Shown here in pieces: positions 58,406 through 60,136 of a stretch of 64,000 bases of DNA. Under the pieces are notes generated by a model. It was not told where the DNA came from. It did no database searches and saw only the letters and a list, made by a program, of their open reading frames with translations. A program made the position numbers and the translations under genes. Each line of letters begins with the position of its first letter. Position 1 is the stretch's first letter. The DNA lies in contig NZ_CP080025.1 of NCBI RefSeq assembly GCF_020463795.1, forward strand, positions 3,531,501-3,595,500, read 5' to 3'. Source of the stretch: Echinicola marina (GTDB lineage Bacteria > Bacteroidota > Bacteroidia > Cytophagales > Cyclobacteriaceae).

Positions 58406-58860
58406 TTATTATAAATGAATAGTTAGGAGAACGTTTCATGCTAGTATCTTACCAAAATCCCTCCAAAAAGTGTTTTTCCTCTAAGGAATAGGTAATTGTA
58501 AACAGGGATTAGGTGATTTGCGATTGGATTCATTTAGTCAACAAGTAAAGAACAAATTTGGATTGACCCTGGTTTGCAATGTTTAAATAGGGATATAAAC
58601 CTGTCAGGTTTAAAAAGAACGGACACAAGGAAATGATTGAATCTTGGTGCGTATTAAACCTGGCAGGTTTTATTCTTTTATAGATAACCGAATTCCTTTG
58701 ACCATTTTTTAAGGTGCATTTTGCTTTTGTGATTGATAATTGCAAGTGGTATTTCTTTAACTTTTTTGAACGTCATTTCTTCGTCAAGATCTCTACTTCC
58801 ATCAGTAATTAGGGGTGTTTTCTTATAGTACTCATCGTCCGATGGTTTTTGTTATATAGC
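58406..58860. other. Intergenic region, 455 bases, with two palindromes
   Basis: Non-coding sequence between the oxidoreductase gene and the convergent small membrane-protein gene. The only structure is the palindrome pair at 58596 and 58655. A 71-residue frame on the minus strand at 58530-58745 runs through both palindromes and does not look like a protein. Confidence 0.6.
58596..58672. repeat. Pair of near-identical palindromes (REP-like)
   Basis: TAAACCTGTCAGGTTTA (58596-58612) is a perfect palindrome around one base. AAACCTGGCAGGTTT (58656-58670) is the same palindrome with a different centre, again with a TA-type flank. They are about 43 bases apart. Each could fold as a hairpin, and each could pair with the other. 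The second is followed by T-rich sequence and may end transcripts. Paired short palindromes in a gene-end spacer resemble REP/BIME elements. Confidence 0.65.
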
Positions 58861-59055
58861 TTATTTGATGGCCCTAAATGGCAGCATGAATATATTCCTG
58901 ATTAGCGAGAGGCTTAAGTCTATTCCCCAACCCAATAATCTAAAAGGAAACAGGATCAACCAAACTACGGGATAAAGAAGGATTAATAACAAAGCCAAAG
59001 GCCAGCAAAGCACGAAAAGTAGGGTCCAAAGAACCAGATTAAGAAATAGATTCAT
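58861..59055 (-). CDS. Small hydrophobic membrane protein
   Basis: A 64-residue frame starting at ATG 59055. It is almost wholly hydrophobic, with two membrane-spanning stretches (about 5-38, rich in Leu, Trp, Val and Pro, and about 40-58) and a basic end (FRAIK). Nothing else in the sequence suggests a function. Small proteins of this composition occur in Bacteroidota as unannotated membrane peptides. The codon pattern is plausible for a real gene, but support is limited to composition and a clean start. Confidence 0.5.
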   Translation of the reverse strand: MNLFLNLVLWTLLFVLCWPLALLLILLYPVVWLILFPFRLLGWGIDLSLSLIRNIFMLPFRAIK

Positions 59056-59327: not shown

Positions 59328-59363
59328 GTGTCTGTAGGATAAAATTACTTATATTTATAGGGA
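59328..59363 (+). promoter_or_regulatory. Candidate promoter of the structured RNA
   Basis: GTG (59328-59330, one base off TTG), a 19-base spacer, and TATATTTA (59350-59357, seven of eight positions of TAnnTTTG). The predicted start near 59364 lies two bases before the outer stem of the candidate RNA. Confidence 0.35.
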
Positions 59364-59535
59364 AAGTGAGTTGAATGTGGGACCATAGGATTGGCGTCTT
59401 ATCCTAGATCAAACTGGAAGGTTATTAGTTGAAGTCCTTAACCATTTTGTTTATAGGAATGTGGTCCCAACTTACAAATGGGTTTATTGTTTAATTGACT
59501 AAAGCTATGAGACTTTGTCTCGTAGCTTTTTTATT
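59364..59535 (+). ncRNA. Candidate free-standing structured RNA with terminator
   Basis: There is no open frame here, yet a strong intrinsic terminator ends the interval: AAAGCTATGAGAC (59501-59513) pairs over 13 positions with GTCTCGTAGCTTT (59517-59529), then T residues. Upstream, TGGGACCA (59378-59385) pairs with TGGTCCCA (59462-59469), enclosing two hairpins: TAGGAT/ATCCTA (59386-59391, 59401-59406) and GGTTA/TAACC (59420-59424, 59439-59443). An outer GTGAG/CTTAC helix (59366-59370, 59471-59475) closes the domain. The next gene downstream starts 600 bases away, so a cis riboswitch is unlikely. I do not recognise it as 6S RNA, SRP RNA, tmRNA or RNase P RNA. Confidence 0.6.
59501..59535 (+). 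terminator. Strong intrinsic terminator with no gene upstream
   Basis: Thirteen-pair stem (59501-59513 with 59517-59529, one G-U) with a TTT loop and a T tract. No plus-strand coding gene precedes it for more than 1 kb, which is the main argument for a non-coding transcript. Confidence 0.9.
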
Positions 59536-60136
59536 TTCTCTCATGACCTGAAGAATCTAGCTAAGCTTATTTTGGTATATAAGTTCTGCAATGGCCTGGG
59601 CAGTTTTTTGGTTAATGTCTAATGAGGAATTTAAAAGATTATCCGTTTTGACAATTTAAACCACCAACTCTGATAGGTCCTGTGCTTATTGTGGGAGGGT
59701 TTAGAATGGAAACCTGTACTGGTGCTATTCCGGATACTCAGTTTTAATAAAATAAATTTTGGTAAAGTAAGCGTAAATAGAATTGTAATTACCTTTTGTT
59801 GGTTTTTACTTGCTGACTTTAAAGTATGGTCCTGAATGTGGTCATTTTTTGGTTAGATTTTTGTTGTTTTTTAGTCTTAGGTGTTTCCATTTCAATTTGA
59901 TTACAAATAATGACGCTGTACCTACTTAGGATTACGATTTTAGGTATATTCATTGTTCTATAGTGCAGTCAGGTAAATTTGTTGGGCATTTGTTTGATAA
60001 AATTGATACGTAACAGCAGCATAATGTATGTTGGACGCCTATTTTGATTGAGGCATACAAATGTCCTTTTAAGGTATTTTTTGTCGCCATTCTTTTGATT
60101 AATATTTGTTTAACAAAGCGTATTAATGATTTGGAT

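Follow-up and report, generated by a model that had tools for sequence, protein, structure and literature searches.

A candidate structured RNA gene of Echinicola marina carrying a 3′ module shared with tRNA-like RNAs of Cyclobacteriaceae

The question raised by this locus is whether a stretch of Echinicola marina DNA free of any sizeable open frame encodes an RNA of its own and, in that case, what kind of RNA it would be. The analysis started from the window, that is, the whole stretch of 64,000 nucleotides under study (G000:C1:3531501-3595500), which lies within a 5.69-Mb genome. Judged from its sequence, the locus at about 59360-59538 on the plus strand looks like a free-standing structured RNA gene, referred to here as class B, whose product would be about 175 nt long according to the positions of a promoter box and a terminator (Table 1). 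The first-pass annotation had described the region as lacking an open frame, and no ORF of at least 40 aa was found to overlap 59328-59535 on either strand. The 13-pair intrinsic terminator that it had reported is likewise present, as a stem-loop followed by TTTATTTTCT. Sequences resembling terminators are frequent here (two were found versus 1.9 expected in shuffles), so the terminator alone proves little. Between the oxidoreductase gene located upstream and the class B locus, a 64-aa very hydrophobic open frame with no Pfam match was observed (58861-59055, minus strand), and the palindrome AAACCTGYCAGGTTT occurs twice downstream of the oxidoreductase gene, at 58597-58611 and 58656-58670, about 45 bases apart.

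In Bacteroidota, the promoter consensus is TAnnTTTG. A TAnnTTT[A/G] box was found 9-14 nt upstream of the TTGRATG motif in all ten class B genes known from Echinicola, ending in TTTG in six of them and in TTTA in the other four, including the gene studied here. When the strict TAnnTTTG form was counted over a wider interval, it was present in 6/10 class B genes versus 2.6 expected, which is not striking for class B alone, in 65/88 of the class A siblings described below versus 8.6 expected from shuffles, and in 46/51 of the other tRNA-like siblings versus 7.6. A promoter had been proposed in the first reading of the sequence, and a Bacteroidota-type box, TATATTTA, is indeed placed alike in the ten copies, whereas it was not among the sites listed by a simple sigma-70 scan with a spacing of 16-18.

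The trimmed sequence of the locus folds as a branched head composed of P1, P2, P3 and P4. With six pairs in P1 and ten in P2, this arrangement is close to the outer 5-pair helix and the 8-pair stem around two hairpins that had been described earlier. P1 and P4 were predicted in ten of the ten relatives, in registers that differ, and the folding z of the P4 arm ranged from -1.2 to -5.1 across class B relatives. All ten copies carry GATTGGC, TAGTTGAAGT and TTG[A/G]ATG, and the constant loop motifs of the head are UUGGC and UAGUUGAAGU. Regarding stability, the head alone (59360-59500) gave a z of -1.26, with 22/200 shuffles equally or more stable, and the whole stretch (59360-59540) a z of -3.83, with 0/200 shuffles as stable. 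In the minimum-energy folds of both intervals, P1 is displaced by other pairings, and in that of the longer one the 5′ end is paired to the U-rich 3′ end. Single-sequence folding energy was dropped as evidence for class B, given that the z of the head is not significant; since the head is not unusually stable and P1 is replaced in the minimum-energy folds, the case for class B rests on comparison. A kissing or pseudoknot interaction that would join the UAGUUGAA motifs to UUGACUA in the 3′ module was also considered, but this pairing was judged by eye only, is mismatched in G007 and was not supported.

BLAST and a motif search, together with retrieved neighbourhoods, yielded ten class B copies, one per genome, nine of them in Echinicola genomes other than that of the locus. 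The covariance model R2 recovered one strong class B copy in each of 10/11 Echinicola genomes; G002 gave none, and G008 had a weak match in addition (E 0.046). On 148 family genomes, R2 returned four Echinicola copies and one weak match, in G128 (E 0.005), which is devoid of the motifs. A motif match at L128 was dropped as a further class B copy, as it has neither the exact motif nor the module. Phage and plasmid collections held no match to class B or to one class A copy. At the class B locus, no Rfam 15 family reached the gathering score, and the search at E<=10 gave three chance-level matches, so the earlier statement that no known RNA class could be recognised stood up to the Rfam check.

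The covariation count covered P2 and P3 on trimmed segments whose ends were chosen by hand for the alignment, because in the MAFFT alignment A2 the 3′ strand of P2 is wrongly placed from clade to clade; this choice leans towards structure, a bias that the slid controls offset in part. Across the 13 pairs of P2 and P3 in ten sequences, 90.0% of the 130 cells are paired, a value reached by 0/500 shuffles, and both sides have changed in 7/13 pairs, which 2/500 shuffles reach. The covariation score was 0.460 versus 0.273 +/- 0.028 in shuffles (0/500 reaching it), and the slid controls stayed at or below 0.121. One P2 pair was seen as G-C, C-G and A-U. Pairing within P2 is incomplete at pair 1 (four failures among the ten sequences), pairs 7 and 8 (two each) and pair 9 (five). 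Compensatory changes are present in P2 of the relatives, covariation being a check proposed in the first-pass annotation, and the terminator hairpin is kept in 10/10 copies, with the U run broken to TTTTGC in G007 and G008. As for gene context, the ten genomes fall into three groups: E. marina with G001 and G009, for which the sole common frame compared is the upstream oxidoreductase gene; G003, G004, G005, G006 and G010; and G007 with G008. These differing neighbours are in line with the free-standing nature initially attributed to the gene.

Table 1. Features of the class B locus (positions within the window)
Feature	Position	Strand	Basis or remark
Promoter box, -7 type, TATATTTA	59350-59357	+	Matches Bacteroidota-type consensus TAnnTTTG, as its TTTA variant
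Putative transcript	59360-59538	+	Start about 59360, end in U tract; from promoter box and terminator
P1, 5′ strand	59366-59371	+	6 pairs with 59470-59475; predicted fold
P2, 5′ strand, GGGACCATA	59379-59387 (10-pair fold: 59378-59387)	+	Covariation
P3 hairpin, GGAU-UGGC-GUCU	59388-59399	+	GATTGGC in 10/10; one-sided changes only
P4, long arm	~59402-59458	+	Predicted fold; stem sequence varies by clade
P4, apical motif, TAGTTGAAGT	59426-59435	+	Found in 10/10 class B copies
P2, 3′ strand, TGTGGTCCC	59460-59468 (10-pair fold: 59460-59469)	+	Covariation
P1, 3′ strand	59470-59475	+	Predicted fold
Module part before hairpin, TGGGTTTATTGTTTAATTGACTAA	59479-59502	+	With hairpin, 7 copies in own genome (R1)
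Intrinsic terminator stem-loop, 13 pairs	59501-59529	+	Part of shared module; compensatory changes in class A relatives
U-rich terminator tract	59530-59538	+	Read from sequence

The initial reading as a structured RNA was right but incomplete, because the terminator, together with the preceding 22 nt, forms a module shared with a multi-copy tRNA-like RNA family of Cyclobacteriaceae. This module (59479-59529) belongs to the last ~55 bases of the class B RNA. The interval 59479-59537 (query bases 152-210) matches six more places in the same genome with 81-91% identity, and the module model R1 found the same module and terminator at seven loci there, the other six each lying 3′ of a tRNA-like RNA; the element is thus multi-copy in its own genome. 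With R1, at least one copy was detected in 31/118 family genomes, and matches were obtained in 9/194 order-sample and 7/296 phylum-sample genomes, these samples overlapping one another and the large searches using stricter filters. All R1 matches fall within Cyclobacteriaceae except those in G025, G587 and G620, of which the last two were discarded as unrelated terminators. In G025, which belongs to another family, a trailer-like stretch with a terminator and no head was observed (L221, ~1490-1550, E 4e-5), which may be due to chance. A pattern scan of named genomes yielded at least 120 module stretches; Cyclobacteriaceae account for nearly all of the matches listed, besides which there are three MAGs that carry the label Spirosoma and three stretches from one MAG labelled only Cytophagales. 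On an IMG/VR contig, the same trailer follows a phage gene, with another terminator stem and no tRNA-like head (L212, 4469-4489, minus strand).

Within class B, mean pairwise identity is 0.906 for the pre-hairpin part, 0.864 for the hairpin and 0.577 for the head core, the last value being somewhat low because it derives from A2, in which one P2 strand is misplaced. By these sequence identities, conservation within class B is highest in the module. The 22 nt before the hairpin are also nearly identical across head types, which partly reflects their selection by the search pattern. Two siblings, L224 and L236, carry a diverged module, which indicates that it is not strictly fixed.

In order to describe these siblings, 153 distinct module copies were classified, with four loci left out: 88 belong to class A and 10 to class B, 52 are of other forms, and the remaining 3 are truncated at contig ends. 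When 34 of the 88 class A copies were aligned, their consensus took the shape of a cloverleaf: the acceptor has 8 pairs, the D arm is weak (2 pairs), the anticodon-like arm has 6 pairs and the T arm 5, and a long variable arm bears GAGCUC in its loop. In the class A whole-RNA fold, 18/55 predicted pairs show a kept double change, and those predicted within the trailer are invariant and hence uninformative. The T arm was found in 88/88 class A and 48/52 other copies, that is, in 136/140 complete non-class-B copies. A full 8-of-8 acceptor match was present in 78/88 class A and 24/48 other copies (102/136 in total) versus 3/88 and 1/48, respectively, when the 3′ strand was shuffled. The motif GGTTATTT, with one mismatch allowed, lies just upstream of the module in 88/88 class A and 52/52 other copies; it precedes the module in 0/10 class B copies, and a canonical T arm is equally absent from class B (0/10). 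The siblings therefore have the acceptor stem and T arm of a tRNA-like mimic, and class B does not. The UAGUUGAAGU and UUGGC motifs of class B resemble T- and D-loops by eye only, and class B was not filed as a tRNA mimic because the module alone is common with the siblings.

These tRNA-like features went unrecognised by standard tools, since ARAGORN called no tRNA in the window or at 18 sibling loci, and Rfam gave no tRNA at the gathering score in the window and nine sibling loci. At E<=10, two sibling stretches of the same genome returned no tRNA and chance-level matches only. The siblings L082-L085 of E. marina itself include class A copies with an 8-pair acceptor and a GAGCTC palindrome loop, and shorter ones without the anticodon-like arm. 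As for sibling neighbourhoods, a pseudouridine synthase gene (PF00849, S4) is the commonest neighbour, located upstream of 52/154 elements, L052 included; it was set aside as a constant partner of the module family, this recurrence being read as one old conserved site. A large protein gene lies 3′ on the same strand in 43/154 elements (in L118, of 1082 aa with no Pfam match).

Considering these observations, the explanation that we favour, and hold to be somewhat probable, is that class B is a free-standing, trans-acting ncRNA of Echinicola, with its own promoter and terminator, in which a class-specific head is set on a shared 3′ effector module. Comparison of the sequences can be taken to establish the P2/P3 fold, the shared module, the promoter box at a fixed place and the changing neighbours; transcription, the exact ends and all function of class B are what we infer from them. 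A primary-sigma promoter belonging to the gene would drive its transcription, which would stop at the gene's own terminator. The branched P1-P4 head might act as a class-specific scaffold protecting, timing or directing the module, and the module as a common effector or loading site that pairs with RNAs or binds an RNA-binding protein. Termination depends on a stem and a U run and does not call for 22 fixed bases upstream; for this reason, and since it is the most conserved part, the module was taken as the common working part. Nevertheless, the absence of GGTTATTT from class B, the absence of class B from G002, the lack of Hfq, RRM_1 and TROVE matches in the genus, the P2 pair failures and the module divergence in L224 and L236 were counted against this explanation.

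As for possible protein partners, matches to Hfq, RRM_1 and TROVE were found in none of the Echinicola genomes (0/11 for each), RbpB being an RRM protein. Among known systems of the same phylum, the available text on the FopS sRNAs of Bacteroides thetaiotaomicron describes multi-copy paralogues with canonical primary-sigma promoters, whose consensus consists of a single-stranded, seed-containing 5′ stretch and a terminator (PMC11697453). Like them, the module family is multi-copy, has primary-sigma promoters and ends in an intrinsic terminator, and it too has a conserved stretch that is unpaired. However, as far as that text goes, the FopS RNAs have no tRNA-like or branched head, unlike the module family, and they work with RbpB (PMC11697453), whereas RRM_1 has no match in Echinicola.

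The module could also be a captured strong terminator without a further role. In the most serious alternative, which we nonetheless find unlikely, the head would be the functional RNA of class B and the module only a cassette for efficient termination that recombination has spread. Such a cassette would fit the strong difference in conservation between head and module, the occurrence of at least three head types (A, other and B) on one module, and the presence of the module after a phage gene, with another terminator stem, in L212. Terminators tolerate many stems, however, whereas the 22-nt segment preceding this one is conserved within class B at the level given above and differs little from one head type to another.

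RNase P and tRNase Z recognise mainly the acceptor and T arm. It is conceivable, if distinctly improbable, that tRNA-processing enzymes cut off the heads and free the module as one small RNA, class B being derived and cut otherwise or not at all. The reduction of many siblings to little beyond acceptor and T arm would thereby be explained: the T arm is kept in nearly all siblings and the full acceptor match far above shuffled controls, the D and anticodon regions are variable or missing in the 52 other copies (by eye), and GGTTATTT, with one mismatch allowed, stands directly before the module in 140/140 siblings. On the other hand, both the canonical T arm and this motif are missing from class B, and class A retains D and anticodon-like arms too. 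A precedent is provided by the TMERs of murine gammaherpesvirus 68, in which, according to the available text, a tRNA-like element and a hairpin RNA are separated by the tRNA 3′ processing enzyme (PMC12239594). The likeness lies in a tRNA-like element that precedes a separate RNA with a hairpin, and it applies to the siblings, where cutting is hypothetical; TMERs differ, as that source describes them, in belonging to a mammalian virus and in their RNA polymerase III transcription and miRNA hairpins (PMC12239594), and class B has no T arm. As a tentative and rather unlikely proposal, Cyclobacteriaceae may hold a bacterial counterpart of TMERs, in which tRNA-like heads, many only acceptor plus T arm, release a common 3′ small RNA, and Echinicola would have put a newly evolved head on the same effector.

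A further alternative is a bacterial Y RNA of the YrlA type, acting with a Ro60 homologue. As far as the available text shows, ncRNAs with a tRNA-like domain are known to accompany a Ro60 homologue (PMC7790460), and the siblings share such a domain. This is very improbable, however, considering that TROVE has no match in the genus and that no Y RNA appeared among the Rfam matches even at E 10; the free-standing multi-copy genes and the common 3′ module also set this family apart. The acceptor and T arm without normal tRNA decoding recall tmRNA in the siblings, but the same genome holds an ordinary, separate tmRNA gene elsewhere (125.6 bits). No literature on the class B RNA or its siblings was recognisable by title or abstract start, most subscription papers lying outside the search; in their design, FopS sRNAs, TMERs and YrlA come closest.

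A fold followed by an intrinsic terminator is attenuator-like, and could suggest a 3′ UTR, or else a leader or attenuator that acts in cis on a gene further downstream; this is highly unlikely, given that the nearest sizeable same-strand frame downstream starts at 60044, about 500 bases away, and that the neighbours differ among the three genome groups. A non-functional dispersed repeat, which the several module copies per genome might evoke, is hardly credible in view of the compensatory changes in class A and class B, the sibling promoter boxes above shuffles and the single strong class B copy per genome.

Class B adds a covariation-supported RNA gene unmatched in Rfam 15. The larger find is a set of multi-copy tRNA-like RNAs, marked by the module in 31/118 family genomes and missed by ARAGORN and Rfam in the tested copies. 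It becomes a testable question whether the tail is a common small RNA and what would load it in genomes with no Hfq, RRM_1 or TROVE match. The constant tail under changing heads represents a natural experiment on modular RNA evolution.
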